Below are positions 25,701 through 54,013 of a stretch of DNA of 64,000 nucleotides, piece after piece (the stretch's first letter is position 1; each line of letters begins with the position of its first letter). Position numbers and translations under genes: made by a program. Where the stretch lies: contig JAWWNJ010000174.1 in NCBI GenBank assembly GCA_037176885.1, positions 62,001 through 126,000 of the forward strand, read 5' to 3'. The DNA is from Favolaschia claudopus. Lineage: Eukaryota > Basidiomycota > Agaricomycetes > Agaricales > Mycenaceae. A model generated the notes under the pieces. The model was not told the DNA's origin, ran no database searches, and saw nothing but the letters and a program-made list of their open reading frames with translations.

Positions 25701-26129
25701 AAAGCTGTATCGACGCACCTACTGACACGGCGCCAAGTTTTCTGGCGTTGTATCCGGGAGGAATGGCTAAGCGGAGGCGTTGCTGTTGGATTGCTGGATG
25801 CCAGCACATCATGCATGCGGCAAACAGTGCCCAAGACCGCACAAACATTCAATCAAACTGGTGCGAAAGATCAGGCCGCCTGGCCACGAATTCTCTCTAA
25901 AAGCAGCGAGCCTGAGATTAAGAACAAGCTGTTGTTCTTCTGCGCAGTCGACCATAGTCCGCAGTTAGTGTACAATTGCCCCGAGTTCATATTTACCGAC
26001 TCAACATCGATTCGAGATGTTGCAGAATATAGGAAAACTGTCGAACTTCGAATGACAGCGTGGTTACAGGAAGAAATTGACTCAAACGAGAAGCTATACC
26101 TTCTACACGGTCGACTCGAGCCACAGAAG
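25701..26129 (+). pseudogene. LINE retrotransposon ORF2 C-terminal part, 5' of the inserted element
   Basis: Open frame with RRQVFWRCIREEWLSGGV, then NKLLFFCAVDHSPQLVYNCP and EYRKTVELRMTAWLQEEIDS, ending RLEPQK exactly at the insertion point of the 2.5 kb TIR element. The reading frame resumes at 28633 on the far side. Because an in-frame stop lies just upstream of 25701 and no reverse transcriptase core is present, this is a 5'-truncated LINE copy, as left by incomplete target-primed reverse transcription. Confidence 0.6.
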
Positions 26130-28626
26130 TATGGCGGTCCGGATGCACTTTAATTAAATCCCGCAACATATACGGATTTTCGGCCGATCCGCAACGTAAA
26201 CAGCCGTTTTGACCGAAATGCCGCAACCTTGACGAGAGATAATCACCTCGTTTATCTTGCGGCGTTTCTGTCAAAAATCCCGCAACATAAAGTTGCGGAG
26301 GCGCAAATCCCGCAAGATACAAAGTTCGAAAAAAATTCCCGCAACTTTTTTGCGTTCTGTTTTCAGCGTCCCGCAAGTTATCAAGCCAATGTTTTTGTTA
26401 TCCCACGCCCCTCTCTGTCTCCATTACCTCCATCGTCTCTGTGTCTTCATCGTTGCCAACTTCGCTGCCTCACTCCTTCTCGTGCCTTTGGCTTCTCGTC
26501 TTGTCACGCCCTTCCAACGGCTTTCTAGTTGCCATCGCTTGCGTGCTTCCCGGACCAGGAATCCATCGAAGCTGTCCGTCCTTGTAGTCTGCCTCCTGCT
26601 ATAACTTCGTCTGTCTCAGCGTCTGTGGCTCTGATCCCAGCTCGCCAATGTCAACCAATCTGTTCGAGCTCTCTCGTCGTTATTCCGAGTCTTTGAGTCC
26701 GGGTCATCTCGACCACATTGAAGCGACCAGTTGCCTTGTGCCACTGTCGTTCTAGGCAGTCTGGTCTCCTCCTGATTTGCCTTTGATATACAAGATTCAA
26801 TACCGGCGCTTCCTCGACCATTGGTGATACCTCAATTGTTAGGGTCAGAAGTCGATTCTCTCGCTTGCCTCCTTGTTCTACTCGTTATTGGACGCTGAGG
26901 TACCGTCCTTTTGTCTTCATCTTCAGTGGATGTCTGCTACTTTAATGCTGATTGAGTTATTTCAGCCCTGCCTTCCTCAATCCACGGTTTGTACGTTCAT
27001 CGAAGAACCTAAGACGGCACATCCTCAGCAAATTCCCAACTTCAACATTGCTCTAAACTCCCGTAATCGCATTCAGGTGTGATCCTGATCCTCCTGTACT
27101 TGACTGTTTGATTCGGCTGATTCTAAACCAGCCTCTGATAGCTAGACGGGTTTATTCACTTCAGAACAGGCGCCCATCGAAGCTTCAAATCCGACCCCCA
27201 AACCCAGCTTGAATTCAAGCCAGCCAATTTCCCCACTCTTCCGACTTCAAGCGACCCACGACTCAGTCCGATTATGAATTGCATGCTTCAGTTTTTCCCA
27301 AAACCCTCGATTCAACCCGGTAGCTTAGTTGTACATTGAAGTGAGCTCTGTCCTGATTCCGAGCTCGGATTTGAATCTGGTTCTGAAACTTCCTAATCTA
27401 TTCAAACACTAGAGCGCTATAGTCCCACTCCGTTCTTGTAGTCTTACCCGGCTAACTCAATCCATTGAGACCTTCAAGAATCCTCTATCTCTCTCCAAAT
27501 AAGCCAGTGTTGCAACTTGCTAACCTTGAACAGCTTGGCTCACTTGCTGGGTGATCGGAACTGATACCACCCCCCTCTGTTCAATCTCATCAATATTATT
27601 TGGATACCTCCCACTCTTCTCTCTCCAAGTTTCATCCATCTGGCTCCACCGGTTTGGTCGGCGCGAACGAGTTGAACCGTGGGAATCGTCTATGATCGCA
27701 TCATTGTAAGCCATTTCAATCTTCGACGATTCGTTTCTGGCTGCTATGACCACGGGCAACTCACTAAGGTCATATGGTGGTCTTTCAAGCATCAGAGACC
27801 CCCTGTGTCCCACTGAAGCACCTCGTGGGCTTCAGCCTTTATCGGATTGTCTTCAATTTCGATAAGTCTGACGGTATCTGGGTCGGATTCAGACGTAACG
27901 GGTCAGTGAGCTCAAGCCGACTCATTGGCATATTGTAATTTGACAACTGGCTAGAACACTACCTCTAGGCATAAAAAACACAGTGTCACAAAGCCTCAGA
28001 GGGTGTTTGGCTGTGGACCCGACTGTCTGTGCCTTCAACTGTGGTTTTGAAACCCTTTGAATTGAGTGAGAAATATCGATCATCGCGGCTTGAATCAAAG
28101 TAAACCTCTTTGGAAAAGCTCGAAGCTCGACGACCAGTTGCACACGCCATTGGCGGTGAAGATTGAACGAAGCCATAAGGTTCAACGGACAGAACACAGC
28201 AAAAATGTGAGCCAATTGAACGTAGGAGCGTGAGGTTGAAGTGAAAGGCAGCCTTCCTATAACGCTTGAGCCTCTGGACACTGCCGTACATACGCGAGAG
28301 TACATACGCGAGACATGGCCAATACACATATTTATCGTACCTAAACTCCCTCTAATAGTAACACTTTCGTCTAGAAAACTTGCGGGAACTTGAAAACAGA
28401 ACATGAAAAAGTTGCGGCAAATTTTGTTTGAACTTTATATCTTGCGGGATTTTCGACTCTGCAACTTTGTGTTGCGGGATTGCGACCGAAACGCCGCAAG
28501 ATAAAGAAGGTGATTATCTCTTATCAATGTTGCGGCATTTCGGTCAAAAACCCTGTTTATATTGCGGATCGGCCGAAAAGTGACAAATGTTGCGGCATTT
28601 ATTAAATGTGCATCCGGACCGCCATA
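26130..28626. mobile_element. 2.5 kb non-autonomous DNA transposon, TATGG ends, about 250 bp inverted repeats, 6 bp target duplication
   Basis: The ends are inverted copies beginning TATGGCGGTCCGGATGCAC. The inverted repeat runs about 250 bases on each side (26130-26382 and 28376-28626). Each arm contains about seven iterated copies of a CCGCAA motif (CCCGCAAC, TCCGCAAC, GCCGCAAC and variants), likely transposase-binding sites. Flanking CAGAAG (26124-26129 and 28627-28632) is a perfect target duplication; removing the element and one copy restores the reading frame of the LINE. The 2 kb interior has no open frame resembling a transposase, so it depends on an enzyme encoded elsewhere. Confidence 0.88.
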
Positions 28627-28632
28627 CAGAAG

Positions 28633-29070
28633 GACAAACCCCCGACGCAAGTAACTCTCAAAATGCGGCACTATTTAATTATGGTTACGACTCAAAAGCA
28701 TCGGGAAGCTTTAACTTCTCTGTTACTGTCTACCCATAGACTTGCTGTGGAAATCTTGCGATACGTGGATCATGCGCATCAACCTGTACCCAGATCGGAA
28801 CGATTGTGTAGGTTTTGCAAATCAGAGGTTGAAACCCCCGAACATGCGCTTATTTCGTGTACCTCCTCCGACACGCTACTGCAATTACGCGCCATTTTTC
28901 TGGGAAAACTCTTCCATGATGCACCCTACCTTCAAAATCTCATGGCTCAACTTTCAAATACAGAATTTCTCAAAGCCGTGATTTTTTGCCGTCCTACGAT
29001 CGGGCTGGTCGCTAAATTTGCGTATGATGTCCTCGAGTTATTTGACTCAGTCCCCGTGTTACGGCCTTGA
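28633..29070 (+). pseudogene. LINE retrotransposon ORF2 C-terminus, 3' of the inserted element
   Basis: Continuation of the frame interrupted at 26129: DKPPTQVTLKMRHYLIMV, then ALTSLLLSTHRLAVEILRYV, then a CCHC-like knuckle (RLCRFCKSEVETPEHALISC), ending VPVLRP with a stop at 29068-29070. The C-x2-C-x7-H-x4-C arrangement is the zinc-finger tail found after the RT domain in fungal LINEs. The unit has 3' UTR sequence to 29266 and a tandem TACC tail. Confidence 0.65.
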
Positions 29071-29266
29071 GCTTCTGAGGTCCCTCTTTCAACTAACTGC
29101 TCCTCTACTTCTTTCTTAGTTCTACAGGGGCGGGTTCAAGACTGCGGCCGTGAGCTCGGCTAAGATGTTGTGAAGGAGTCCAAGGACCGAAGTTTACATT
29201 AGTGCCTATGTAATCTCTGATACTCCTTGGGCCCGGCGTTCCTGAGCGGGACCGTGCCGTGTAATC

Positions 29267-29286
29267 TACCTACCTACCTACCTACC
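29267..29286 (+). repeat. (TACC)5 tail of the LINE remnant
   Basis: Five perfect copies of TACC at the 3' end of the LINE unit, about 200 bases after its stop codon. Short tandem tails in place of poly(A) are known at the 3' ends of several LINE clades. This marks the right edge of the copy. Confidence 0.65.
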
Positions 29287-30186
29287 AAACATAAACCAGA
29301 GCTGTAGAGACTCACAGAAGCAGGTCCCATCGTCGGCATGTTGTCGCATTGCGGCATAGGTATCCAAAAACGCGCAAAGAATGACACGATTCTTTGACAC
29401 GAACTTTCAGACCACCAATTTTGACAAAATTTTGAAGCGTGTCGGTCCAATTTTTGGGCTGCAAAGTCGCTAGGAGGCGGAAAAAGCAGCGAAAGTCGCT
29501 GGTGAGCATCTGACGCGACGCTTGGTGCGGTGTATCAAGGCAAGGCAAGGCCAGGACCAGGAGGATTCCGGGTGAATTCGGAAAACAGTGTACGTACTAG
29601 GCAGGAGGTCTATATCCATCTTATTTCACGTCGGACTGTAGTGAGCTCACTACTCAGATCTCAGAGTCTGATAGAGTCACCGCAAGATGAGCCAAGGTAG
29701 GTAGTAACCCACTAACAGTGGTGGTCAAGAGAAAAGAGTGAGCGATTGATCCGTCGGCAAAAGCCGTGATGTCATCATCATCAGCTTGTCACTGACTGGA
29801 AAACGTGTTTCACCACAATTTTCACCACCCAACGACCAGCCGTGGGCCGTGGCGGTCAATTCGCTCAGCGCTCCTTACTATCGTGACTACCTACTCTGGC
29901 TATGTCTCACGGCTGCCTACGTTCGACTCGTCTCAACGCGTTCCACCAGACACTCAGGCTGGCAGTGACCACTGCTGGGAGAGACGAGCCGAAATCAGCG
30001 TTGGGCCTGGGGCCAGGGATTCTGACAGTGACAGCAGCTCGAACGGTTCCCTTATCTCTGTGGCTCCCGCTTTCCGTTTCTGAAAGCCAGGAGTGCCGCT
30101 GATAACCGAGATCAAAGTCCCCTTTCTGCCTCCTCGTTTTGTCCTCGTTGCACTTTGCCTGGACCCACAAAGCACCTTGACCAACC
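29287..30186. other. Intergenic, upstream of 2OG copy 2
   Basis: No recognisable gene or repeat. It includes the promoter of 2OG oxygenase copy 2. Confidence 0.5.
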
Positions 30187-31855
30187 ATGTCGAATTCCCC
30201 GGTGAGTACCATTGCACGGTGCGGAGAATTCTAAGTATCTGAGATGAGTTCATACTGCAGGATCGAGGTGAAGAACCCCCCTCGCCAATGGCAATCGCAG
30301 ATCGACTGGAGATTTTGCGAAAGGCCATCAAGAATACGGCGCCATATACGGCGGGAGTGCTTCCAGTCAAACCCGAAGACCTTGTCATTTACTACAACGT
30401 GAATGCTGAAGATACCCGAGCTCGGTGTGTCTTCTTTTCTTCTTTACCCGCGTGAAAGCCTCATATCGAGTCTCGTCGTAAGATCCATTGACTTGAGCAA
30501 CGCGTCAGACGAAGCTCTCAAAGATCTCGCTGCTGCATGTCAGAAAGCCACTTTCGGCCTGAATCAGAACGATGTTCTCGACGAGACGTATCGAAAAGCG
30601 GGGAAGATGGACTTGAACCAGTTCGCCACCCGACTCGACGTCGTCAGTTCGGGGCTGGTTGCAGCAATCAGCCCCGGTATCATGCAGGTATACGCCAGAC
30701 ATGATGACAAGACTCTCATTGCTGAGCTGTACAAGTTGAATGTCTACGGTCTGTGCTCAGAATCATTCGATTTCTTTCGATTCGTGGCTGATTCTGATTG
30801 CTTTGTTAGGACCCGGCTCGTTCTTTAAAGCCCATCAAGACACCCCCAGGAGTAACTCGATGATTGGGTCCCTCGTTGTCGTTTTCCCAACTTCCCACAA
30901 AGGCGGCGAACTTACGCTGGAACACGACGGAACGGTCTGGACCTTCGACTCCGCCACGGAAATCGCCGAAGCCGCCAACTCCTCATCTGTTGCCTACGTT
31001 GCATTTTACAGCGATGTCGTCCACACCGTCCAGCCCGTCATGTCCGGATACCGCGTAACTCTCACGTATAATCTCTTCCTGCGAAAAGATTCCGCTATCG
31101 GCCTCGATGGCGGTACACTCTCAAGTTATCACTCGCAGCACCCTGATGTCATATTCGAAAATACCCTCGAAGCCCTCCTCGCGGACGCTGAGTTCCTTCC
31201 GAACGGCGGGCTTCTAGGTTTCGGACTCTCCCATCAATATCCCATCCCATCGGACGAACAGTACAACCGTCTCGAACCCTTACTCGACATGCTGAAAGGA
31301 AGCGACGCGCGTATCCGCGCCGTCGCACAACGACTCAATTTAGAAACTAACCTCAAAATTCTTTACGACAGCCTCGGGGATAAGGCTTCAGACGAGGGTG
31401 TGGGAATAGGACAGGACGTTCTCACCGACGACGTGCTTTATCTGGATGACTGGGCCGAAGATCAAAACAATGATTCTCTCCAGTACGAAATCGAACACAG
31501 GGGGATTCTGCTCGAGCGAGACGACGAGAGATTTGAGGAGACTTATGGAAGACGTGGGTGGACGCGCGAAGACGATGAAGAAGCTTTCCGGCGCAGTCCA
31601 AGACCCAGGACAGCGGTTCATTGGGTTACGAAAATCAATGAGCTGAATGTGGCTCTGACTCGGTACGTCGGGCAAGGAAACGAGGCGTACATGGGTTTTG
31701 TTTACGGGAATGTCGCCCTATTTGTCGACGTACCGGCATTCGGGGATGGGGTGCGTGCTTTCGAAACCGACTCCGACGAGGAAGAGGACAAAGAGGAGGC
31801 GGGTGAGATAGAGGAACCGGCGGAGACCAAAGTTGGGGATGGGGATCCGGAGTAG
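30187..31855 (+). CDS. 2OG-Fe(II) dioxygenase-like protein, copy 2
   Basis: Four exons with exact junctions (30187-30201, 30261-30424, 30483-30748, 30810-31855) give about 496 residues. The architecture is identical to copies 1 and 3: MSNSP exon, then DRLEILRKAIKNTAPYTAGV, KPEDLVIYYNVNAEDTRAR, AACQKATFGLNQNDVLDETY, GKMDLNQFATRLDVVSSGL and KLNVYGPGSFFKAHQDTPR with the H-x-D iron ligands. The jelly-roll GSLVVVFPTSHKGGELTLEH and the distal His/Arg in HTVQPVMSGYRVTLTYN complete the 2OG-Fe(II) site. The C-terminal half carries RPRTAVHWVTKINELNVALT and an acidic tail (DSDEEEDKEEAGEIEEP). The frame is intact, so this is the best-preserved member of the three. The substrate is unknown. Confidence 0.87.
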
Positions 31856-32836
31856 CCGCTGAAGAAGAAGGGTGTTGTCCGCAGGTGGACAGAGGGTTGT
31901 GCCAAGGTCGTGCCGGGATGAGTCCGAGGGTGGAGAGAAGATGGTGATGTCGAGCCGCCGAAGGTACTGGATTCAGAGGTAGAGGAGTGAGAAGAGAGAA
32001 TCCAATATAAAGCTTAGCTCAATCTCTTGAAGAATCGGTGTCTCAGACACGTTCGCAGGGGGAAAGGTGTATTCGTGGTGGTAAGAGGGTAAGAGAGAAG
32101 TCCCGTGACCAAACAGATTCCAAATATACGTAAATTCCCCATGGTGAGGTGAAAGCCGCGCTTCTGAATTAACCTTATAAACCTCGCCGACGGAAATCCG
32201 GGAAATACGCAAAGACGTAATAGGGAGAGAACGCCGCCAGCTCATCGCTGAAGGTGGGTGCCCAATCCACTTCAACCTCGATCCCCAGCGTACTCCGAGA
32301 AGCCCGAAGACTCGGTTGAACTCATCAGTCTGGCCATATGTACGAAGTTGTAGGTAAGGTCTGTTGAATATCTAGCAAGTGAGTGACGTATGATCAAGAG
32401 AATGTGAAAGACGTATACGCGTAATAATCGAGTATTCTGAAGCGAGATGAGCGAAATGCTGTTGAGGATCGCGGAAATTAAAGTAAGGCCGGGATTTGCG
32501 TGATAGCGAATGAGCGTCGATACATTGATTGTGGTTGTCTGTCGTGGAAGATATACGAGTCAGCAATAAAACGAGCAGGTAAGGTATGCTTGAGATGTCG
32601 AATGAAAATACTGAGCGCAAGGTGAATATCCTTAGGCAACTTGCGTGACGGGCTTATAGCATAGAGTCGACGAGGAGGGCGACTAGCCCTTCCACAACGC
32701 ACAGGAAAATTGGGGGAGAGGTCAAGCTATAGGATGTATTTGTAAAATTGGAACCGTTTCCTCTTCATTATATTTTTTCGTGTTCCCATACATGGGACGT
32801 AAGTAGGTTAGGTCAATTGAGTCATGATTCATCACC
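31856..32836. other. Intergenic
   Basis: About 1 kb between 2OG copy 2 and the 3' end of the sugar transporter gene. Only short open frames, none with recognisable content. Confidence 0.5.
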
Positions 32837-35170
32837 CTACTCATGTTTCGATTCATGGCTGACTTTCTCATCCGCATGTGAGTCGGGGATGCCGAATTCT
32901 AAATATCCCAGCGTCAAAGAACGAAGATCAGAGAAGAAGAAACAGCCACTCACGATCGACCTTCGTCTTGCTAAACCGCCACGCAGTGACCTTATTCTCG
33001 AACAGAATATCCAGTTCACCATACGAACGTCCTCTCGCTGTAAATAATCAGCACAACTCCTCATCCAAGAAAATGAATAAACCAAATAGATAGAGAAACA
33101 GGAAAACAGAAGAAGAATAAATTTAAAAAACCCCAACACTCACTTTCCGGCAACCTAAAAATACAATACACCATACTCAGCGTCGCGCTCCCAAACCAAA
33201 AGTACCCGCTCTTCGGGCCCCAGTTCCACGCCGTCGGGCTCAACATGCGGGGGACGATAATCCCACAGATGATGTTCATGATTTGATACGCGCAGCGCGC
33301 GAGGACGATGGTTTTGGCGCGGAGGCGCGTTGAGCCGACTTCCGCGATGATAACGTAGCAGACGGCGCCTGGCGCAGGGAGAAGTGATTAGTGATAAGCA
33401 GTATTCAGCATGAGGCGAGAAGAACCAGGAGAAACATATATAATACACACCAAGCGTAGAGTTGTACGCGAAGTTGAGCAACACAAGTAGCGCGCCGGAG
33501 GCCCATTTGGCTGCGTCCGTTTTGGACGAGGAGAGTGCGCCGATGATGATGAGGACGACGGCCATTGCGGCGAGGCCTGCGATGTAGAGGGTGCGGCGGC
33601 CGAAGCGGGAGAGGACTGCGGCGGGTTTGGGGTTTGTTGAGTTCTAGAGAAGAGAAGAGAAGCGGGAGAGAAGAGAAAGGACGCACGAAACCATGAGGCT
33701 ATGGTGCCGACGATGAACATCTAGAGGAATACAAAACAATCGAAGTCAGAGGAGAGTTGGTCTCTGTAGGGAGGAGGGGACAGACGGCGTTGAGGGCAAG
33801 ATTGACATCGTATGCTGCGACGGTGCCGAGACCTGCTTGGACGAAGCTGATTGGACGAGCGCAGTACTAGTCAGTTCAGTCGATCGTGAACACGTTGAAA
33901 CAAGAACGCACAATTGGACGCCCTGACCAATCAAATTCTGCCCAGAAAGCAGCTGAATAGCAAAGACCATCATCGCCTGCACACCTCAGCAACCCATAAT
34001 CCATTCACAATGCAACAAAGCCGCACTCACAATCTCCGTCCTCCTCAAATCAATCCCCTTGAAACACTGCACATACGACGTCCCCACCTGCATCTCCCTC
34101 TCCAACGCCGTCGTATGAATCATATTCGCCACACTCCGCTTCGCGTCTTCCCTCGAAAACAATTCGGGGTTCGTCAACCGCATGACACTCTTCTCCGCGT
34201 CCTCGGTGCGTCCCTGGCGGACGAGCCACCACGGGGATTCGGGCGCGAAGTAGCAGAGGAGGAGGAGGGGGATGGGCCAGACCCATTGGATTACGAAGGG
34301 GAGGCGCCAGCCCCAGTCGGAGTTGATTGTGAGGGTTGCGCGGACGACGCCGGAGGAGAGGAGGATGCCGATGCCCCAGCACATGTTGATGTAGCTAGAA
34401 GGAAGAGGATGAGAGAGGTTTTGTGAAGGAGAATTGAGAAAGATTTTGACGCACGCCGTCAGATAATGTCGGAGAACGATTGGGCATACTTCAGACGCGT
34501 ATGCGGTGGTCAATGTTTGGAATACTACGAAGAAGGTTTAGTTTTGGCTGAAGCCTAAGAGTCGGGGATGCGGCTACGCAGCGTACCTCCCCAGAACAAG
34601 CCGCAAATAATTTCCGATGCAGTGAGCTGAGCCAAAGTCTGACTGAACACAGGCCCAAATATACTGATGATCATTCCCAGCATGGAGACCATGTATGTGC
34701 GTCGCGGGCCAAACTTCTCGCTCGCCCATCCGTTGATGATCAACCCAATGATTCCGCCAACGCTGGAACCGTTCCCAAGACCAGACTGCCAGGGAGCTGG
34801 GATGCCGAGCTTTCCAGTCGCCGGGTCCTCCTCGCCGAAACGTTTCAAGAACGCTGGCTGTTCATAGAAGGAGGCTATCTAGAAAGAAGAAAAAAACAGA
34901 TTACGACCGCGCGTGAATGAAAACACGCGTAAAACGCACCACCACGACATCATATCCCTCCATAATCAATGCAGCAGAAAGGGCGATACTCCAGAATACC
35001 GCCTTCTTGTGGATAGCCAGCGCTTGCCGGATGGACATGGTGTGCTCCGCCTCATCGGCCTTTGCAGCGTCGTGAATGACCTCGGCATAGTTGTCGATTT
35101 CGTGGGCGAGGCGAGTGTTGTCGGCATGAACGACGCCGACGGAGGCGTCTTGCGGGTGTGTTGAGGCCAT
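32837..35170 (-). CDS. MFS sugar transporter, maltose/alpha-glucoside permease type
   Basis: Twelve-helix sugar:proton symporter of the sugar porter family, closest in style to fungal alpha-glucoside (MAL-type) permeases. It starts at 35170 (MASTHPQDASVGVVHADN). The long hydrophilic N-terminus with HTMSIRQALAIHKKAVFWS and EGYDVVVIASFYEQPAFLKR is typical of MAL permeases. Later blocks are NGSSVGGIIGLIINGWASEK with FGPRRTYM, FQTLTTAYASEVCPIVLRHY, YINMCWGIGILLSSGV, PESPWWLVRQGR (the conserved PESPRWL-type signature), SRFGRRTLYIAGLAAMAVVL, AEVGSTRLRAKTIVLAR and the final NWGPKSGYFWFGSATLS with GELDILFENKVTAWRF. A last exon (FGIPDSHADEKVSHESKHE) ends at 32837. About eight short introns. It looks intact. 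Confidence 0.9.
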
Positions 35171-35618
35171 GATGAGTTGAGAACGGCGAGAAAACCAACG
35201 GTGGACATTTTCGAAGCTCTTTAATGAAGTGGCGGGTGGCGGAGGTCAGACGACCGCGGGAGATTCTCGGAACCGCGGAAAGGCGGGCCGCCGGCGGGAC
35301 CGGGATCCGCCGTGCCTGAAGTCCGCCGTCACGCAATTGAACCGTGGGAAACGCGGTGAACAAGAGGCGAAGTTGAAAAGTTCAGAGGACTTCATGGATC
35401 TGAAATTGTGGGTTCCATCAGTCAAAAAGCTTCTCAGTGTGTACAAAAAGAAGACTGCGCCCGAGAACGGTTTGATCGTAGTTTGTCGCAATGAAAGCGA
35501 GCACCGGCCGCCGACCCATCCAGGCACCACGAGTTCTGGTTGAAATTTCAACTCTCCGCTCGTATCATACGAATAGAGTGCCGAGATTTAACCGAAACCT
35601 GTCAGATTCAAGAGAGAA
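35171..35618. other. Intergenic, upstream of the sugar transporter
   Basis: Promoter region of the MFS gene. A 300-base open stretch on each strand has no recognisable motif. Confidence 0.5.
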
Positions 35619-35846
35619 GAACGACAATTAGAGCTCAGAGCTGTCCTGATCGGCGACGAAACTGGCATGAGCGAAAGTTGAACTTTCGGATGCCGCGGCG
35701 AGGTTGACGTAGGTACAGCTTGCCTACAGACAAGCTGTGAAACAAAACCCAATCACAACCATTTTGCCATGCCATACTCACATTGAATCGATGGCTCATG
35801 CATATGTAACTCGATATCTGCTCAAAATTCACATATATATTTAGCA
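35619..35846 (-). repeat. About 230 bp dispersed repeat, copy A (inverted relative to 46418-46650)
   Basis: Read on the minus strand it starts TGCTAAATATATATGTG and ends GAGCTCTAATTGTCG. It matches 46418-46650 almost base for base over the whole length. Within it are an intron-like segment (GTGAGTATGG to TTTCACAG, about 50 bases), a 10 bp hairpin (CAGCTTGTCT/AGGCAAGCTG) and a 7 bp hairpin (GAAAGTT/AACTTTC). It lies directly downstream of the BRCT/F-box gene in the same orientation. Confidence 0.75.
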
Positions 35847-35900
35847 TAGCAAGGCGTTTCCCAGCGAAGAAGAACAAAAAAATCTACAAAAAAACCCCCG

Positions 35901-38231
35901 TCATCGGCCCTCATAAGTCAACTTCAGACCCTCCTCCACTAGTTGAATCATTCGGCGCCGAATGTCAGAATGCGCATCAAGCGACGCTCCCCGCTCCTCC
36001 CTCGGCAATATCCTCACCTTCTCCAAAGGCGTCAAACGCCAACGAGACTCCAACATCTCCACCATAGCAACCTCCGACCCTGGGCAAGCAGGCTCACCTG
36101 GCGTAAGCACCAAGTTTCTCAAATTCGGAAGCACCGCATTATCGTTTCGATCATACATGAAAAACCTGAACAGCTCGTCTGTGAGATCCACGCCATGCGC
36201 CCGGTAAAGCCCCAGATCCACAAGCGACGGCATTTCGCGGAGCAGAGTTTTCAAGCGGGCGAGTTCGATGCTAACAAACACCAGAGAAAGCTTCTGCAGT
36301 TTAAGCCGCGAATGCGAGTGGAGAAGGTGGAGACTCTGCCACGAGGCGTCACGCAGGTCGAGAGAGATCAGACGCGGGAGTGTGAGTTGTTCGAACAGCG
36401 ATACGTCGTCAATGTCAAGATTATTCCAATTCAGCGTCGTCAATCTCTCCAGTACCGCTGACATAGCCGGCACCGAGATCCCCTCATCCGGGTCCGTCGC
36501 AAACTTCAAACATTCAACATGAGTGAGCTGCGGAAGAAGATACGCCGTCTGCAAAACATCGAGCGCGACGAATTCGAGATCCACGTGAGTTAGCGTACTC
36601 CAATCCAACGAGAACATACGACAGTTCAGATTCGTGAACGCAGAGCCCTCGACTCTGATGCTATGCAGGCGAGGTAGATCTTGGAAACACGCGAAAGCAG
36701 CAGCTGGGGTGTCCTCCCAGAGAATCGGACCGTCTGAACATCCGCCCCAGCCTTCGTATGGCAAGCAGAAATACTGGTGCCGCGAAAGATTGGACTGCGG
36801 ATCGTATGTTGCATCGCATTTGTCGATAACAGTAACGCTGAGGCGCTGTAGCAAGGGGAACGAGCCCGCCGGCGCGCTGAATAGCGGGAGATAATGTGCG
36901 GCGGGAAGGTCGAGAGCTCGCGGATACGGCGAGCGTGAAGGAGGAGAAATTGTACGATGGGGTTTTCAGTTTCTGGATAGCAGCTGCGGATGGTGAGTGC
37001 GAGTGGTCGGGGGGTGCTGCGTTCTAGCCACAGGGTGAGGAGGTTCTTGAGGCGAGCGAAGTGGTTGTTCGAGTGGAAGTTGAGAGGGATGCGAGTCCAG
37101 AGCTCAGGGATGGCAAGGGAGACATCGCGCCAACGCCTGCAGACCTGCGAAACTGCTTGCATGTCGGTCAGGCACGGTAGTTCCTCATCGAGGACATCGT
37201 CACGAACTACGATGAAGATCTCCGCCATGATTTCGAACGGAAGAGAGGGAAACGGTGCCTCCGTAGTAGATAAATATCCATCAAGATATTCGGTATTGCT
37301 TCCGCTGTTGAGAAATTTATGTACGAAACGTTGCAAGGCGCAAAGCTGTTCTGCATCTGAGTTGGAAGCGTCTTGCGGAAGAAGCAAATAATCGGTGACT
37401 GGGAGAAAGGCATGATTTGCAATACAGTCACGAATCCAGTGGGAAGAGACGACGATGGGACGAAATTCAGCGTGATAGAAGTCCCGTCCCGCAGCAATCG
37501 TTGGATCGGCGACCAGGTGAGTCGTATCATCTGTGAGGGTCGGCGCATATTGTCCTCCAAACAGCGAGACAGACTCGCAAATGAAGCGTTCATCAGCCGC
37601 GGACATCTAAGTATCGGTGGAGCAATAATGAGCTCAAATGAGTCAAATCCAACCCAGATTGAAAACAAAACGTACTTGGTATGCTGTAACGACAATGGAC
37701 GAAAAAAACATTGCGGGATCGGGAGAGTAGTATTCCGATCTAAAGGGGCGTCGTCATCGACCCTTTCAAGGACAACTTTATTGAGCTCACGGTCTTTTGG
37801 CACCACATTTGACAGAGGCGTATACCCATTCCGGCTGTATCAGTCGAGTCAAAGTCGAGTCAGTACTTGGAGAGCTATAGCCGACGCTGATAAGACGAGA
37901 ACTCTACCGTTACAAAGATGCCTCGGCATTTCGATGGCTCATATTTGCTGTAGTACAACCGGTCGACGATGATTCGTGTGGCGTCGGCGTGTTTCGTCGT
38001 TTCTTCCGCGTCGTTCTCATCAAGCGAGAATACAACCAAATCCCAGTTGCTGGTGTGTGGGTCAATGTAGTATACCACTCCAGTGAAGATGGGCTGCATC
38101 ACAGCGGCCATGCACCAAGTGTGTGTCCGTAGATGGTGGCGGGAAACAAGGAACGAAATGTTTGGCGATGAAGTGTTTGCAATCAGGGCGTGATTGAGAC
38201 AATCGCAAAGTTCGGCATCAGCGGCAATCAT
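35901..38231 (-). pseudogene. Tandem-BRCT plus F-box/LRR protein gene with a 2 bp frameshift
   Basis: Exons 37908-38231, 37791-37834, 37676-37739 and from 37606 downward join with clean GT-AG introns. BRCT 1: GVVYYIDPHTSNWDLVVFSL through RGIFVT, PEWVYASVKCGAKRP. BRCT 2: EYYSPDPAMFFSSIVVTAYQ, GGQYAPTLTDDTTHLV, PIVVSSHWIRDCIANHAFLP. Then an F-box (FPSLPFEIMAEIF, VCRRWRDVSLAIPELWTRI) and leucine-rich repeats to the stop at 35901. The frame breaks once near 36912-36917, where GAGCTCTCGACC replaces the expected GAGCTCGACC. Removing two bases rejoins IREL to DLPAAHYLPLFSAP. Everything else is intact, so the lesion is recent, a sequencing error or an allele. The true start may be the Met at 38099 (MQPIFTG). 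BRCT domains bind phosphopeptides; joining them to an F-box suggests a substrate adaptor of an SCF ubiquitin ligase (inference). Confidence 0.75.
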
Positions 38232-38594
38232 GTATAAGACCGATCACCCCTTTCTTTGTGCTTACCACCACCTTCAACCGATCCCCAGCTCGCAGTCTTC
38301 AAGGGTGTTACATTCGACTGGGCACTAACTTCTCCTTGGACTGAATGCTATCTGGAAAGGTCAGTGGCGCGCCGTCAACGCGCCGTTTCCGCCAACACTA
38401 TGACTTTTAAGTTCTGACTCCGAGTGGCAAAGGTCATTAATTAGTAATTACTAGGTACGCAACGACGTTTTGGAAATGTCTTCAAACTCGTGATCGCTTG
38501 GTTATTAGAGTGTGAAGTTCACCTGTCCAAGTAACCTGCGCCTCGTTTTTATCACCTCGTTCCACAAAATAAGGTACCCAACTTAATCAGAGCA
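38232..38594. other. Divergent promoter region
   Basis: 363 bases between the start of the BRCT/F-box gene (minus) and the start of 2OG copy 3 (plus). Both promoters must lie here. No motif was assigned. Confidence 0.5.
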
Positions 38595-38759
38595 ATGTCG
38601 ACAACCGTACTTACGTTCGTTTTCGTTTATCCTCAGCCTATCCGAGCTGACTTGAAGCAGTTTGAAAACGATGCTACATCTGTAGCAGCGCCGACAATCA
38701 AAAGTCACCTGAAGACTTTGCGCAAAGCCATCCGCAAGGATACCCCATACACAGCGGGG

Positions 38760-38764
38760 GTACA
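38760..38764. repeat. Left target site duplication GTACA of the LTR element
   Basis: GTACA immediately precedes the 5' LTR and recurs at 42410-42414 directly after the 3' LTR. Five bases is the usual duplication made by Ty3/Gypsy and many other retroviral-type integrases. Confidence 0.9.
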
Positions 38765-39104
38765 TGTAACGGTCCGCTCTCACGAATATTATTTCTTTGC
38801 ATTATTCTCAATACATGACGCTCATTCCTCCCAGTTGATTGATTTACCGATCTTGCGGGCGCCAAGGGCGCCGCGCAAGCCACTGACGTTCCTTTAGCTG
38901 AAGGATCACGGAGCTGCTCCGTGATCCTTTCTTTTTCCGTTGCTTACTGATGTAGTATATAAGACCTGTTGTTCCGTAGTTAGTAGGCTAGAGAATAGTA
39001 TCCCTACGCCACTCACCTCGTCTGAACGCCCTCCTGAGACGATTCTTCTGTGTGCCGGAACTAGCCGCCATCGTTAGGTCTACTTTGGGCAGCTCTCCGT
39101 CACA
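38765..39104 (+). repeat. 5' LTR
   Basis: 340 bp. Contains a TATATAAG box at 38956-38963, a 14 bp hairpin with a one-base loop at 38901-38929 (AAGGATCACGGAGC and its complement) and a GC-rich hairpin at 38852-38879 (CTTGCGGGCGCC/GGCGCCGCGCAAG). Both structures are conserved in the 3' LTR. Confidence 0.92.
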
Positions 39105-39211
39105 TCTTTTTGAGTGCTCGATAATCCGTCGCTACCCTGCTGGTTACCCCTCTGGCTGATCACCCGAGCATACCACTCTGTCGACGACAACAACCCCGAC
39201 TAACTGCGGAT

Positions 39212-41581
39212 ATGGATATGAACTCACCCACCGATTCGCGGGCGAGCTCACCTGCTCGTCGCCCCTCTCCGTCGGCTCTGCCTAGTCCTCCAGCGTTGTT
39301 CTTTGGGTCCATTGAGGCTGGTACGTCCCCTTCACCTACCGCCACTTCGGTGGTGAGACGCACCGTTGCTTCGGCGACGCGGCCTTCGGGCGATACCTCT
39401 TCGGAGAGACCTTCCGCTGCTTTGTCAGTGAGAGCCGTTGCTTCGGCGACGAGAAATATCAACCCAAACCCAACCCGTTTGGCGGAACCCTCGACGGTGA
39501 GATCTCGTAGTGCTGTCAGCACTGACGAATCTCTGGATTTTCGCTTGCATCCCGCAAGCATTGATACCGATGTGTTGGTGGATGTTTCCACGCCGGATGA
39601 TATTGCTGGCGGGGCTTATACCTCCGTCAACCATAGTTTATTGTTTCATGGTAGCACGCACCTTCGTGATAATAATACGTTGAGTAACGGATTAGCTACC
39701 CGTTCCATCATCGACATGAGTTATGAAGAGCTTCATGAACTTGCTGAGCAGCACGAGGCTTACGCCGCTCAGCTTCGCGTTCAGATGCAACACAAGAATG
39801 CGAATGATATGTCTCCTTGGGGAGACGTAAGTGTTCTCGAGAATTTTGATTCCAAGGATTACGAACATACCTTGGATGCCTTCGCCGATGAAAGCATCGC
39901 AAAGCGCAGACGCGTGACGACGCGTAAAGAGTTCGAGGAAGATAGAGCTCCTCAACCAAAACCAGAAGCTGAGAAGATAGAAGTACCTTCTCAGGCCCAA
40001 GCATTGGATGGAGAGTTCCCATCTGATAGCGCTTCAGAGTTGAAGCCTGGAGTTCCAGAGTTGGAATTACCTGCGGTTCAAAAAGTTGAACCTCAATTGC
40101 GCTTGATTGCCTCAGAACGTGATAGCCAAATCGATCACGCTCTCTCGTCCGATACGATAAGTTCCTCGGACAAAGAAAAGTTAGTTCAGTTGCTTGACAA
40201 AATCAGTGAGCTTGAGAGGCGCGCAATGACTAGCTCACCGGAAGTGAGCGAGTCCAAGGACTTATCAAAGTCCTCGACCAAACCCAAGCTGCGAGGCGCA
40301 TCGTTGGGTAGATTGGCTCCTGGGAGCTTCCTTGATAAAACCTTGCGTGGAGAGATTAAAACCGGCCTTTATCAGTCGCCGTCCGATTCGCCAGATGACT
40401 CTCCGAGCTCGAGTGGTAACTCCAGCTCTTCGAGTGACGCCGAATCTGGATCGCGACGCCGCCAGTCCATCCCCCGCAGATCTTCGAAGCGAGAACGAGG
40501 CTCCAGACGTAAGCGCAGAATGCGGCTAAAGCCAATCAGTCCTTCACGTTACGACGGCGAACCAGACGCGAATAAAATTCAACGGTTCGCACGAGAAGCG
40601 AAGACCTATGTTGAGATGGGTCACGTACCGGAGGAGCGACAAGTCTACTTTGTGTCCTATTTCTTGGATGGCAAAGCATTAGAATTTTACCATCAGATTG
40701 TCATGAGGGACAACGATGATTGGGACCTACAAAGATTTTTTGTTGAACTCTGGGGATTCTGCTTTCCAGTTGATTTCCGCAACCAACAGCGCGAGCGACT
40801 GAAGCGTTGCTATCAAGGCAACAAGACAGTCGCAGAACACGTTGCAGACTGGTCTCAAATTTTCAACACTATTGGAATTGTTGACAGCCAAGACAAGGTG
40901 GTTCAATTATTTAATAGTTTTACCTCGAAAGTCCGAATGGAAATTGCTCGGCAGCATCTCAACCCAGAGAACGCTAGCTGGGATGAGATTGTGAAAGCTG
41001 CAATCGATGCCGAGGTCATCGTTCAAATTGAAAACCGACTGGATGACACAGATGATCAGTATTCTGAAAACTCGAATGAAAACTCACAATCTGAAGATGA
41101 TATTGACGAATCCGGTACAGATTCGAACGACAATGACTCCAATGAAAGCCCTACTGAGGATGATCAGTACGACAACGATGATGGAAATGCCGACGAACCG
41201 GCCGAAGACGAATACAACGAGTACGAGTCCGATGAGGATCGTGCTGAACATGATGATGAGGAATCCTCCAAGCGAGGAGATGGAGGGCGTACCGACGCCC
41301 GAGACGATGATAAGCGCGATGAGTACATGCGGAAAGGCTTGTGTTTTAACTGTGGAGGCCGTGGTCATCGCGCTCGAGACTGCCCTTCCCCGAGATCAGT
41401 AAGAAACACAGCTGATAATGAGATTGCGACGCACGCAATTTATTTCCCTCATAGCCCAAACTCCCGCAGCACGCTCGCTGAAACCACTGAGATGGGTATG
41501 TATGTCGGAAGCGTGCGATTTAATATTCCTCTCGAAGTCGAGGAGGGCGAGGTGGAACCCATGGAAACTTTTGCTGATTGA
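39212..41581 (+). CDS. gag: Retrotransposon Gag polyprotein with zinc knuckle
   Basis: A 789-residue uninterrupted frame. Residues 1-340 are a low-complexity Ser/Pro/Glu-rich arm. A basic stretch (RRKRRMRLKPISPSRYDGEP) begins the capsid-like retrotransposon Gag domain at about residue 445: EAKTYVEMGHVPEERQVYFV, FLDGKALEFYHQIVMRDNDD, LWGFCFPVDFRNQQRERLKR and VKAAIDAEVIVQIENRL. After a very acidic spacer comes a CCHC knuckle, CFNCGGRGHRARDC (about residue 710), which binds RNA. The protein should build the virus-like particle. The intact frame over 2.4 kb suggests recent selection or recent insertion. No pol frame follows. Confidence 0.9.
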   Translation: MDMNSPTDSRASSPARRPSPSALPSPPALFFGSIEAGTSPSPTATSVVRRTVASATRPSGDTSSERPSAALSVRAVASATRNINPNPTRLAEPSTVRSRSAVSTDESLDFRLHPASIDTDVLVDVSTPDDIAGGAYTSVNHSLLFHGSTHLRDNNTLSNGLATRSIIDMSYEELHELAEQHEAYAAQLRVQMQHKNANDMSPWGDVSVLENFDSKDYEHTLDAFADESIAKRRRVTTRKEFEEDRAPQPKPEAEKIEVPSQAQALDGEFPSDSASELKPGVPELELPAVQKVEPQLRLIASERDSQIDHALSSDTISSSDKEKLVQLLDKISELERRAMTSSPEVSESKDLSKSSTKPKLRGASLGRLAPGSFLDKTLRGEIKTGLYQSPSDSPDDSPSSSGNSSSSSDAESGSRRRQSIPRRSSKRERGSRRKRRMRLKPISPSRYDGEPDANKIQRFAREAKTYVEMGHVPEERQVYFVSYFLDGKALEFYHQIVMRDNDDWDLQRFFVELWGFCFPVDFRNQQRERLKRCYQGNKTVAEHVADWSQIFNTIGIVDSQDKVVQLFNSFTSKVRMEIARQHLNPENASWDEIVKAAIDAEVIVQIENRLDDTDDQYSENSNENSQSEDDIDESGTDSNDNDSNESPTEDDQYDNDDGNADEPAEDEYNEYESDEDRAEHDDEESSKRGDGGRTDARDDDKRDEYMRKGLCFNCGGRGHRARDCPSPRSVRNTADNEIATHAIYFPHSPNSRSTLAETTEMGMYVGSVRFNIPLEVEEGEVEPMETFAD

Positions 41582-42069
41582 AGCGCAATGTCGCCTTCGA
41601 GACGAACCGTTATACAGATTCCCCTTCCCTTGAAGCGATTCCACATGCTGAAAAGAGGTTGATTCCCACAGATTTTGAAGTCAAACCGGACGCAAAGTTC
41701 ACGGAGCAATCCGACGCGAAGACAAGACTGAATCGAGTCGGTTCTGACTTGAAGTCAAGAAATCGTGGACACCTGACGGAGGGCGAAAGTGCAAAAGACG
41801 CAGGTGCGAAGCACGATGTCCATTTGCTGTCGTCACACAACGGCAAGGTGGATGAGCCAAACGGTGGTGGTGGTTGAAAGCAAGTCGAGATTGACAGCGC
41901 AGATCCCGTTGATCCGTTACGTCAAACGGAGTTCGGTGTTCAATTTCGAGCCAAATCCGAATTGAACACCGTTGAACATGCTCAACGATCGACTCACGCA
42001 CATCCTCCACTGCAAGAACTAAACCGATCCTAATTGAGGCCAACTCGCATCGTTGACCTAGAGGGCGGA
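41582..42069 (+). other. Non-coding 3' part of the LTR element
   Basis: About 490 bases between the gag stop and the 3' LTR. A short frame of about 99 codons overlaps the gag stop but has no pol-like motif. An inverted repeat (CGGTGTTCAATTTCG and CGAATTGAACACCG, about 41931-41973) could form an RNA hairpin. The end is purine-rich. Confidence 0.6.
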
Positions 42070-42409
42070 TGTAACGGTCCACTCTCACGAATATTATTTC
42101 TTTGCATTATTCTCAATACATGACGCTCATTCCTCCCAGTTGATTGATTTACCGATCTTGCGGGCGCCAAGGGCGCCGCGCAAGCCACTGACGTTCCTTT
42201 AGCTGAAGGATCACGGAGCTGCTCCGTGATCCTTTCTTTTTCCGTTGCTTACTGATGTAGTATATAAGACCTGTTGTTCCGTAGTTAGGAGGCTAGTCAA
42301 TAGTATCCCTACGCCACTCACCTCGTCTGAACGCCCTCCTGAGACGATTCTTCTGTGTGCCGGAACTAGCCGCCATCGTTAGGTCTACTTTGGGCAGCTC
42401 TCCGTCACA
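42070..42409 (+). repeat. 3' LTR
   Basis: 340 bp, four substitutions from the 5' LTR, followed at 42410-42414 by the right copy of the GTACA duplication. Confidence 0.92.
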
Positions 42410-42424
42410 GTACATCATCTCAAG

Positions 42425-42825
42425 TAGCGCTGTGTTGGAATCAAAATCTGGGCTGTGAGAAATGTGAGATTCAAACCACCCCCCTGGTTATTTAACATGG
42501 GCATGTTAATAACAGGGTTTATAACATGACGTAAGCCCACCCAGAAAAATTTTTCCGCCTGATTTTCAGCTGACTTTCTTGAAATTTGCCTCAAATTCGC
42601 CTTCGACGCCCTCCGGGCAGAGGAGAGTGATTTTTGACTCAATTCTCAGCATCCCAAGGGCGAAATTAGGCTGCAAAAGTGGTGTCCAAGGCACCGCAGG
42701 GGCCCCTTCCTAACACATAAATAACAGGTGTTTCTGGACCTCAATTGTGAGAAATGTAATTTACATGTTAATAACAGTGTTATAAAGTACCTGTTATATA
42801 ACACGTTGATTCCTACACAGCGCTA
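42425..42825. mobile_element. hAT-like MITE (401 bp)
   Basis: Inverted termini TAGCGCTGTGTTGGAATC and TAGCGCTGTGTAGGAATC (one mismatch in 18). It is flanked by an 8 bp target duplication ATCTCAAG (42417-42424 and 42826-42833). An 8 bp duplication with TAGxG-type ends is the hallmark of the hAT superfamily. The interior is non-coding and has several ATAACAGG-like repeats. It sits ten bases after the end of the 3' LTR. Confidence 0.9.
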
Positions 42826-44395
42826 ATCTCAAGCCCGAAGACCTGGCAATCTATTATAGCGTTGACGGCGACCGTCCTCGGTGGGTCTCAGATTTACAAC
42901 TCTGGAAAGTGCCCACAATCGAATACTACCGGCAGAGAAATCAATCTGGGCAACGCGTCGAGAGACGAGCTCCAGGACCTCGCCGCCGCATGCCAGAAAG
43001 CCACATTCGGGCTCAATCATGAAGACGTCCTGGACGAGACGTATCGAAAGGCGGGAAAGATGGATCTAGACAAGTTTGCCACCCGGCTCGACGTCCTCAG
43101 TTCGGGGCTGTTGGCCGCAATCAGGCCCACTATCATGCAGGGGCAAACTGAAGCTGACGACAAGACTCTCATTGCGGCACTGTACAAACTCAATGTCTAC
43201 GGTGAGTGGCATAACTGCATCCATCATCTTTGTTTATTTGAACGATTTCTTTCGTAGGACCTGGATCGTTCTTCAAAGCGCACCAAGACACTCCTCGAAG
43301 CGATACAATGATCGGCTCTCTCGTGATCGTCTTCCCCACTCCCCACGAAGGCGGCGAGCTCACCCTCGAACACGACGAAACGGTCTGGACTTTCGACTCC
43401 GCCGCCAAAATCGCTGAATCCGCCCACCCCTCCTCCTCCGTCGCCTACGTCGCATTCTACAGCGACGTCATCCACACCGTCGAGCCTGTGAAATCCGGCT
43501 ACCGCGTCACCCTCACCTACAACCTCTTCCTCCGTGACGAAGCCATCCACTCTCTCACTAATGGGGGCACACGCGTTCTCCCAGACCACCACCCCGATCG
43601 TCTATTCGATAATACCCTCCGCATCCTTCTCGCAGATGAAGAATTCCTCCCGAACGGCGGGTTATTGGGATTCGGGCTGACTCATCGATACCCCATTCCA
43701 TCGGACGAGAAGTACCCTCGCATCGAACCCTTGCTGAAGTTGTTGAAAGGGAGCGATGCGCGGATTCGCGGTGTCGCCGAAGACGTCGGGCTTTCAACGA
43801 AAGTCAAGATTGTCTATGATACCTACACGGTGGGTTATAGTTATACGTCCCGTGAGGATGCAAAAGACATCCTCGCCAACGATGTCATAGATCTGGACGA
43901 CTGGAACGAGGAGGCTGATGGGCCGCTGGAGGAGGCGCTCGAGAGCCACGGGGTGGTTTTGAGTTACGAAGACGACAGTGAAGACGCAACAGATGAGACG
44001 CGGGTGCACTGGGTCGTTCCGTTCAATCGCCGGAATATAGCGAAGTCGCGGTATATTGGGCAGGGGAACGAGGCGTCGATGCAGTTCGTTTATGGGAGTG
44101 CTGCGCTGTTCGTCGAGGTGCCGGGGGTTGGGCGGGGGGTGCGTGCGGTTGGGCATGATAATGTTGGGGATGAGGATGAACAAGAGGTGGAGGAGGGAAA
44201 GAGGAAGAAAAAAAAGAGGAAGACGAAACATCCTGCGATGTAAAGTGGTGTGTGCCTGTCATCAGATTCTTGAACATGCGCGTTAATTTGGGTTCGATCG
44301 CCGCCAGGAACGCAGTCGATTAGCTTTAAATAGTGTAGAGCTGCCGCATACCTACAAGGTGTCAACCAAACGAACATTTTCTTTTTATGGTTGTG

Positions 44396-45289
44396 TATGG
44401 GCGATATATTGTGCAATAAATAATTTCGACTTCTGCCGAGATTTGAGTACAACCAGTGATCTTGGAGGCGACTTGTCGAACTTGTTGACAACCTCAAAAC
44501 GCATCGGCAACAACTTACATGACAACTTGCATGTTATGCAACTGCATTTGGGTAGAACTTCTCTTGCTCTGCTCCCACTACAACGACAACCTCTGACCGG
44601 ACCACACACAACTCTGGAACCAACATCACGGAATTAGCTGATCGCTCATTCGGCCCACCATCAATTGGCTCGGCACATCGGCGGTTTTTCTTTACATTCC
44701 TTCCAGAGTTCCGGTAGCGGAAAGCCCGTTGAACAATTAGTCATGCTAAGATTTAACTGGCTAATAGAGTACGTCTGTAAATTTTCTGTTGGGACTAAAC
44801 CTTCACTGCAGACCTTGAACATGGAACACATGAATCAACTAAATATTAGAAAGGACCAAATCCTTGTTTCAAATCTTCTCGGATCTCTCAACTGGATGGT
44901 CAGAATATATCTGTACTGTTATGCTGTCTCTATGTCTTCCAAAGGATCCCGCTCATCTTCTCTCAGCCGTCGATCCCCCCACGTCAATTGCTAGCAACAT
45001 CGGCGTGATGGACATCAAGCCGAGGACATGCCGAGCACATCGGCAAGTGGGAATGCATTCAGAATATGTGCAATAGGTGAGAGTTGTTAAAGCTTCATGT
45101 TGTGGGTGTGAGTAGCTTCAGTTGTATCAGAATAAAGTTGCCGCCAAGGATGTTGTCGAAATCAGAGTTCAAGTTGTCGCTAACCGAAGTTGCCTACAAA
45201 TGTTCGTTAATTTACGTCGGTTGTCGCTTTTTTTCGCTAAATTCAGTCAAGTTGCCGATTTTGATTTTTTGCACAGTATATGTGCCATA
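44396..45289. mobile_element. 894 bp non-autonomous DNA transposon, TATGG ends, 6 bp target duplication
   Basis: The left end reads TATGGGCGATATATTGTGCA; the right end, on the other strand, reads TATGGCACATATACTGTGCA. Both continue with imperfect matches. GTTGTG flanks it on both sides (44390-44395 and 45290-45295). Near both ends a CGRCAAC motif is iterated (for example CGGCAACAACTT on the left, and GTTGCCG, GTTGTCG in inverse on the right), the same layout as the larger TATGG-ended element at 26130. No transposase frame. It lies between 2OG copy 3 and the small secreted protein gene. Confidence 0.75.
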
Positions 45290-45295
45290 GTTGTG

Positions 45296-53100: not shown

Positions 53101-54013
53101 GGATGGAAGTGGTTAGGGAATGCAATCGAATGGGACGGATTTCCACACCAAATTCGAATTGATCTTTCATCAGTTCGTGAACCATTCCAGTCTGCTTTAG
53201 GGTCTCGATGTCTACGCCAGTTCGGAATTGATCAGTCCAATCCTCAAATCGTTGTTTGAGTGCATTGTACTCCTTCATCTCGTTTGCAAATGAAAAAAGC
53301 CCTATACAGGACAAAGTAAGATGAGCAGTGAAACTTGATTCGAGGCTGTTCAGCTTACCGTGGCGCGAATATTTCGCAATGAGGCTTCCTGCATTCCGGA
53401 TGATCGGTTCGAGCCGTCGCAAAGTTTCTTGGAAATGCGGCACAGTTGCAAATAATCGAATGTGGTCGACATAAACAAGAAAGTTTCCCATTTCCTCCAG
53501 GAGGCTCAGCAGTTTGTCGTCCCATTCCTCGAGCTCGGCACAGATCTATTTATGATCATAATTCATAGGGCGACTTTGTATAGCTGCGTGGAACGCGCAC
53601 ATTGTAAATCTTTCCCAAACCCGTGGCAATGGCTTTCGCGGCTGGATGGTACTGAGCACAAATAGTTGAGCCTTTCATCAAGTGCGAATTATAATGTTTA
53701 CCTCGCTTGCAGCGCTGAACACCTTGGCAAAGTTTTCCAATAATTGCCGGGAACGACCCAGCCGTTCGAGCAGCCGAAAACGGCGCCGGACCCTTTCTTT
53801 GCTTTCGATGAGGATCGCCTCCGGCGCTTGAATTTCACTGTGATCTTCCATTGGCGTTAATTTCTCCTCTGTCCTTCGCTTTTTCATTCTTCCCCTTCTA
53901 TGAAGGGTGGCGTCCAACACATTACTTCCCCTCGTCGATCCGTTGTGAAGGCTGGTCCGCATCAAGTCCTGCCGCGCTTGAGTGGATGACTGATCCACGG
54001 CGGCGGCCGGCAT
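50141..54013 (-). CDS. NACHT-WD40 NLR-like protein
   Basis: Signal-transducing STAND NTPase of the HET-E/NLR type, likely involved in non-self recognition or programmed cell death. The main exon 50141-53491 is 1,100 codons long. Two upstream exons (AEYHPAAKAIATGLGKIYN; AELEEWDDKLLSLLEEMGNF) and a first one with LLERLGRSRQLLENFAKVFS join by GT-AG introns. Helical N-terminal domain, then Walker A GHPGCGKS, a sensor stretch, Walker B LVVLIDGVDEC, TSRDETRIS, a winged-helix-like FVDFLRSKSCPRGF, and a helical linker. Seven C-terminal WD repeats follow, e.g. VEGHVDDVLSALFIQRGHVA, FSGHSESVSSVIFLDDETVL and LTGHRDAITSVAFSNDGRRL, then a WNPDTGKP-to-DGWIRGP type ending. The repeats differ from one another, unlike the near-identical, fast-evolving repeats of HET-E. 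The open frame continues upstream of 54013. Confidence 0.88.

Follow-up and report, generated by a model that had tools for sequence, protein, structure and literature searches.

Which transposase moves two short DNA elements that share the first five bases of their ends and the length of their target site duplications (TSDs), and do these elements form one family or two? This question is raised by a 64,000-nucleotide stretch of the Favolaschia claudopus genome (assembly GCA_037176885.1, contig JAWWNJ010000174.1, positions 62,001 to 126,000; hereafter the window), in which a sequence-only reading had recognised two elements, here called E1 and E2, as one family of DNA transposons with a possible affinity to the IS3EU superfamily. 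Our analysis confirmed their coordinates, the TATGG..CCATA termini of both and the two exact 6-bp TSDs, as well as their differing interiors; a blastn comparison of E1 with E2 gave no match at E 0.01. Taken as a whole, the evidence makes it highly probable that E1 and E2 belong to two separate IS3EU families, each mobilised in trans by its own transposase, which would engage phased subterminal arrays through a helix-turn-helix (HTH), cut with a DDE core and insert with a 6-bp stagger.

Each element is a non-autonomous representative of a large family. In the 264.6-Mb assembly of 460 contigs, a 19-base E1 tip occurs 142 + 137 times with up to 2 mismatches, against 1 + 0 for the reversed control, and a 21-base E2 tip occurs 207 + 211 times, against 0 + 1 (positions were listed for the first 100 occurrences of each tip). 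Genome searches returned at least 174 matches for E1 and at least 57 for E2, 21 of the latter nearly full length, including the window copy. The window itself holds no second E1 tip at up to 4 mismatches, no second E2 tip at up to 5, and no match at E 1e-4 to transposase homologues of at least 390 residues.

Target duplications were surveyed in 36 E2 loci, 20 E1 loci and several long elements (L019 to L083, minus L071 and L076 to L080). An exact 6-bp TSD flanks 44 of the resulting 53 end pairs (17 of 18 for E1, 27 of 35 for E2); two of the 44, L027 and L035, have the same flanks as other pairs. The exceptions are L042, with five of six bases matching; L020 and L056, with no duplication; four copies that have one nested junction in common and lack a TSD (L029, L030, L031 and L033); L023, in which an outer end was paired with an inner end; and L075, a long element considered below. 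Seven loci (L041, L046, L049, L051, L053, L054 and L063) contributed no pair. Two further long elements, on C76 and C47, have exact TSDs (ATGGTG and TGGCAC), and a third, on C81, has GACAAAC on both flanks with one additional base at the right. Across 46 listed duplications, the first position favours C and the sixth favours G. The preferred base occupies 51 of 92 half-sites (p about 1e-9, from a test picked once the list, in which C81 is counted, had been viewed).

The terminal regions of both elements carry iterated motifs, as originally noted, but the Cx(x)CAAC consensus ascribed to both proved to be a blend of CCGCAA[CG] in E1 and [AG]CAAC in E2. Measured against 200 shuffles each, CCGCAA[CG] occurs 9 and 7 times in the two 260-bp ends of E1 (shuffle means 0.12 and 0.07) and is absent from its middle, and the E2 motif, scored as [AG]CAACT, occurs 4 and 6 times in the ends of E2 (0.62 and 0.64). 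Literal C..CAAC is enriched in the E2 ends (4 and 6 versus 0.81 and 0.83) and C.CAAC is not (1 and 1 versus 0.87 and 0.88); [AG]CAACT is over-represented in the middle of E1 as well (7 versus 1.99), which blurs an otherwise clean picture. In the window copy of E1 the motif lies at positions 32, 60, 92, 127 (reversed), 151, 163 (reversed), 181, 210 and 242 of the left end and, counted from the other end, at 32, 92, 127 (reversed), 150, 180, 210 and 242 of the right. The 20 E1 loci supplied 37 ends, among which CCGCAA[CGA] is repeated at 32 (25 ends), 60 (19), 92 (33), 127 reversed (32), 150 (31), 162 reversed (21) and 180 (29), with innermost sites at 210 (16 ends, the rest 1-3 bp off) and 242 bp (10 ends, the rest 1-5 bp off). 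Among 56 distinct E2 ends out of 65, [AG]CAAC points one way 521 times and the opposite way 22 times, and the best period, 16.5 bp, has a power of 498 versus at most 136 in 300 position randomisations; these ignore that the copies are related, so part of the regularity reflects descent. The arrays are oriented and helically phased, with periods of about 30 bp in E1 and 16 bp in E2, and are present in the autonomous copies as well. We read the motifs as putative binding sites for the transposase.

Longer elements were located through E1 or E2 tips lying far apart. Among those with E2 ends, L075 and L081 measure 8,349 bp each, lie 334 kb apart on contig C21 and show 100% identity across 8,352 aligned bp, and L082 (9,379 bp) is 91% identical to them over 5.6 kb. 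Two frames lie on the minus strand of L075, one with an HTH and one with a DDE core that matches Pfam rva_4 at E 2e-54, and rva_4 genes lie within three of the four fetched E2-ended elements longer than 4 kb. The sequence-only reading had proposed a search for an autonomous member; for E2, an rva_4 transposase is enclosed by the matching ends in L075, L081 and L082. A derivation of E2 from L075 by internal deletion was rejected, the match between them being limited to the outer 58 and 41 bp. The best NCBIfam match of the E2 core is IS481 (E 1.7e-5, far under the curated cut-off), and a PDB sequence search with the transposase returned the integrase of human T-lymphotropic virus 2 alone (E 0.27). 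An alignment of 35 homologues shows no variation at D271 and E306 and almost none at D235; we take these three residues to be the catalytic triad. The N-terminal frames give weak HTH matches in Pfam and no match to the integrase zinc domain (HHCC), as for IS3EU.

For E1, the corresponding element is a 10,327-bp copy on C81 with inverted ends of 340 bp at 98.5% identity and an HTH exon and a DDE exon between which about 3.7 kb of DNA has been inserted. Close to one end of this insert (L076 about 4306-5321 plus L077 1-2673) are ACCCACTC..GAGTGGGT repeats, and repeats resembling them lie close to the other. The DDE exon is 35% identical to that of L075 over 224 residues, and the best NCBIfam match of the HTH exon is IS3 (E 3.9e-4, again far under the curated cut-off). 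A genome search with the HTH frame gave 135 matches, the best besides itself being C210 and C253 (94%). These two are identical over 3,489 bp and also agree in 40 compared flanking bases, and they are therefore probably a single locus held twice. C210 is 94-96% identical to C81, lacks the insertion, adjoins an E1 end and contains two frames matching rva_4 (E 9e-14 and 5e-18), so that for E1 the expected autonomous member is represented by the split C81 copy and by an unsplit gene beside an E1 end. Three other long elements were considered as autonomous partners and set aside: the E1-ended elements on C76 (L078/L079) and C47 (L080 with L071) and the E2-ended element on C17 (L083) contain Helitron-like, DDE_Tnp_4 (Harbinger-like) and DDE_1 frames, respectively, and L078, L079, L080 and L083 gave no rva_4 homologue. 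We read these frames as nested insertions because three different superfamilies are involved, each in one element. Helitron, Harbinger and pogo elements also generate other duplications.

The ends, motifs and transposases thus argue against the single family first proposed. E1 and E2 are two families of one superfamily, probably moved by two transposases, since their ends and motifs differ and the transposases, about 35% identical over 224 residues, fall on separate branches. In trees of homologues the E2 protein groups among Favolaschia and Mycena proteins, and the E1 protein falls outside the basidiomycete group with support of 100/99 and 100/100 in two trees. The E1 protein is a long branch, entered as a read-through of the split C81 copy, and an approximately unbiased test did not reject joining it to the basidiomycete group (p 0.308). 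The sequence-only reading had named a different TSD length or two transposases as findings that would speak against its single family; two transposases are probable, and a different TSD length was not seen, apart from L075 and C81. One shared transposase that accepts both types of end would account for the equal first five bases and TSD length, the similar C1/G6 preference and the CAAC-like arrays in both elements, but it is very improbable given that the two lack any blastn match, that tips, motifs and array periods differ, and that each type of end has a transposase of its own inside or next to it, the two enzymes being about 35% identical.

The proposed affinity to IS3EU is supported on two counts: an integrase-like DDE transposase is encoded by the long elements that share these ends, and ends and TSDs match those published for the superfamily, which has TA..TA ends and usually 6-bp TSDs in the passages available to us (PMC10045372). 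From these sequence features we infer membership of IS3EU rather than of a sister group. The alternative that the pair forms an unnamed superfamily of its own, a sister to IS3EU, GingerRoot and IS481EU, could draw on the uncertain, long-branched placement of the E1 transposase and on a published tree, in the part available to us, that leaves IS481EU and IS3EU/GingerRoot unseparated (PMC10045372). This is nevertheless very improbable, as the ends, the TSD length and the TAYGG..CCRTA signature reported in rusts are those of IS3EU, and homologues occur in many animals and fungi, namely Agaricomycetes, Phenoliferia, Glomeromycota, tardigrades, molluscs, corals, insects and fish among 120 listed of 200 and of 373. 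Least credible of all, and extremely improbable, is that another kind of transposase moves the elements and the rva_4 genes are passengers. The foreign frames on C76, C47 and C17 would fit such a view, but they come from three superfamilies with one element each, as in nested insertions, and from transposons that make other duplications, whereas rva_4 turns up repeatedly, both within E2 ends and at E1 ends, and 6-bp TSDs are published for IS3EU elements with these ends.

Several observations weigh against the IS3EU assignment or against mobilisation by end-matched transposases. The assignment was made by comparison with published descriptions of the superfamily, and blastn found in E2 no counterpart of the long inverted ends given for rust IS3EU. 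The autonomous E2 element L075 is flanked by a 7-bp TSD. On the E1 side, rva_4 exons were found in only one of the three two-ended elements longer than 4 kb, that one copy (C81) is split and imperfectly duplicated, and the 7.2 kb examined at C210 contain a single E1 end. Foldseek with the transposase model, whose query P0002 is without a piece that its homologues have, placed retroviral integrases first (best E 0.046, weak) and gave no match at E 0.001. Movement in trans, finally, is something that we infer from sequence.

Within these bounds, we propose a model in which each family would be mobilised in trans by its own transposase, supplied by long elements that have matching ends and lie at other places in the genome. 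The N-terminal HTH would most likely bind the oriented, phased subterminal motifs, allowing the protein to pair both ends and to cut at TATGG..CCATA with a core resembling that of retroviral integrases, and the cut ends would then be joined to target DNA with a 6-bp stagger.

The right terminus of E2 is itself a recurrent target. At 8 places in the genome an exact E2 start lies no more than 30 bp beyond an E2 right-end core, versus 0 for the control. Because the gap between them is an identical 5 bases in all 8, these junctions identify a single target, TATGTG, which is bases 6-11 of the right terminus read outward; as CACATA it is also present in the right tip of the window copy, which has not been hit. 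At least three independent events struck these same 6 bp (C121; C8; C53/C116), against a chance expectation of about 0.0002 (arithmetic from ~200 insertions, ~200 sites and 265 Mb). In the C8 event (L088, C8:3096200-3098100) the inner E2 is inverted and the outer E2 has its own TSD, CAAGGA; the other nested copies are L023 (C121), L026/L027 (C116, C53), L029-L031 and L033. The left junction of C53/C116 is also found on C14, C152, C158 and C259, and these may derive from the same event. C152 was considered as a composite transposon, the inner junction being present in four contigs, and no outer left end was found within the 1.6 kb fetched. Related cases, noticed among the sampled loci, are an E2 insertion with ATACTG inside a terminus (L032), a copy abutting a terminus (L045), a copy overlapping a tip (L081) and, on C71, an E1 copy inside an E1 end whose left flank falls outside the fetched stretch. 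IS911 and its relatives insert beside their own ends.

The autonomous elements also carry genes besides the transposase. The second gene of L075 (about 2400-5887, minus) corresponds to P0215, a protein of 853 residues named as J domain-containing in UniRef, with the J-domain-like region at its C-terminus. Its relatives are P0216, P0217 (Mycena polygramma) and P0218. Pfam DnaJ matches two of these four weakly (E 0.018 and 0.036, under the cut-off), and YHPDKN is invariant in all four. All nine matches at E<=1 in a PDB profile search are J-domain proteins (best E 0.009), as are two of the four in a single-sequence search, and the structural model has a mean predicted local distance difference test score of 36.6, making its Foldseek matches meaningless. 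The data further suggest that P0217 and the transposase P0033 are linked in M. polygramma. In E1 elements a frame opposite the transposase strand matches BTB at E 0.021, under the cut-off; such weakly BTB-like frames lie at L095 577-1561 (minus) and L077 3614-4599 (plus). As a tentative and rather unlikely extension, mushroom IS3EU transposases might assemble on long, phased, family-specific arrays and, in the manner of IS3-type elements of bacteria, direct insertions to a fixed hotspot in their own terminus (CACATA, bases 6-11 of the E2 right end), building nested and composite elements by design, with a J-domain-like passenger perhaps aiding the formation or dismantling of the complex.

Features of the two elements in the 64,000-nucleotide window
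Feature	Position	Strand	Evidence
E1 left TSD CAGAAG	26124..26129	n/a	exact duplication
E1, non-autonomous IS3EU-like element, 2,497 bp, TATGGCGG..CCGCCATA	26130..28626	+	ends, TSD
E1 left inverted end, 256 bp, 84% identical to right end	26130..26385	+	blastn
E1 left phased CCGCAA[CG] array	26161..26377	n/a	motif scan
E1 right inverted end	28371..28626	-	blastn
E1 right phased CCGCAA[CG] array	28379..28595	n/a	motif scan
E1 right TSD CAGAAG	28627..28632	n/a	exact duplication
E2 left TSD GTTGTG	44390..44395	n/a	exact duplication
E2, non-autonomous IS3EU-like element, 894 bp, TATGGGCG..GTGCCATA	44396..45289	+	ends, TSD
E2 left tip	44396..44416	+	tip search
E2 left CAAC motif array, reading outward	44450..44624	+	motif scan
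E2 right CAAC motif array	45083..45254	-	motif scan
E2 right tip, inward reading TATGGCACATATACTGTGCAA	45269..45289	-	tip search
E2 right TSD GTTGTG	45290..45295	n/a	exact duplication

Elsewhere in the window, three frames match 2OG-Fe(II) oxygenases (18538-19557, minus; 30740-31852, plus; 43242-44240, plus), the third stopping 155 bp before E2. A frame of 1,134 residues at 50144-53545 (minus) combines an NPHP3_N domain with WD40 repeats, and one of 818 residues at 39125-41578 (plus) contains a CCHC zinc knuckle, possibly from a retrotransposon gag.

IS3EU is little studied and ties the bacterial IS3 and IS481 groups to eukaryotic transposons. End recognition by an IS3-like transposase in a eukaryotic host can be studied well in this genome, which offers two full-length copies identical to each other, matching ends by the hundred and ends whose anatomy is unusually clear. 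The interest of the system lies in this clean anatomy, its recent activity, its passengers and its self-insertion hotspot. Concrete features open to testing are the phased arrays, the J-domain-like passenger and that hotspot. Literature searches returned no paper joining IS3EU and subterminal, and none on Favolaschia claudopus with a transposable element, within the collection and wording searched.

Comparison with known systems places E1 and E2 as new families of a known superfamily, since IS3EU ends and TSDs have been published and the superfamily is listed in mushroom genomes (PMC8955403, PMC12411881). According to the passages available to us, IS3EU/GingerRoot has been in Repbase since 2013 (PMC10045372), and E1 and E2 have in common with that group at large the TA..TA ends, the 6-bp TSDs and the integrase-like DDE transposase. 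Bacterial IS3 and IS481, the best NCBIfam matches (under cut-off), likewise join an HTH to an integrase-like DDE core, but IS3 mostly makes 3-5 bp TSDs and both have TG..CA ends (PMC10045372), as against 6 bp and TATGG..CCATA here, and the autonomous elements differ from them in having introns and passengers. In the same source, IS481EU has a related transposase and a loose TNT..AYA signature that TAT..ATA fits, but its parabasalid members make TSDs of about 4, 15 or 25 bp; Ginger1 and Ginger2 make TSDs of 4 or 4-5 bp; and Polintons, with 6-bp TSDs and a DNA polymerase B gene, would fit when compared by TSD length alone. A further close likeness is to IS3EU of rust fungi, for which the published passages give TAYGG..CCRTA ends, matched by TATGG..CCATA here, 6-bp TSDs and inverted ends longer than 30 bp (PMC12730594). 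Inverted ends measure 256 bp in E1 and 340 bp in C81; E2 has none by blastn at E 0.01 and shows only a short, imperfect tip common to both ends. The rust passages are silent on subterminal arrays and self-insertion, and the words J domain, DnaJ and BTB are absent from the text of that paper (PMC12730594). Scanned frames of L075, L076, L077, L095 and P0215-P0218 gave no Pfam match to TET/JBP or alpha-kinase at E 0.1. The rust elements resemble those described here in carrying additional genes beside the transposase, which in the TET+ group are TET/JBP and alpha-kinase genes (PMC12730594) and in F. claudopus are J-domain-like in E2-ended and weakly BTB-like in E1-ended elements.

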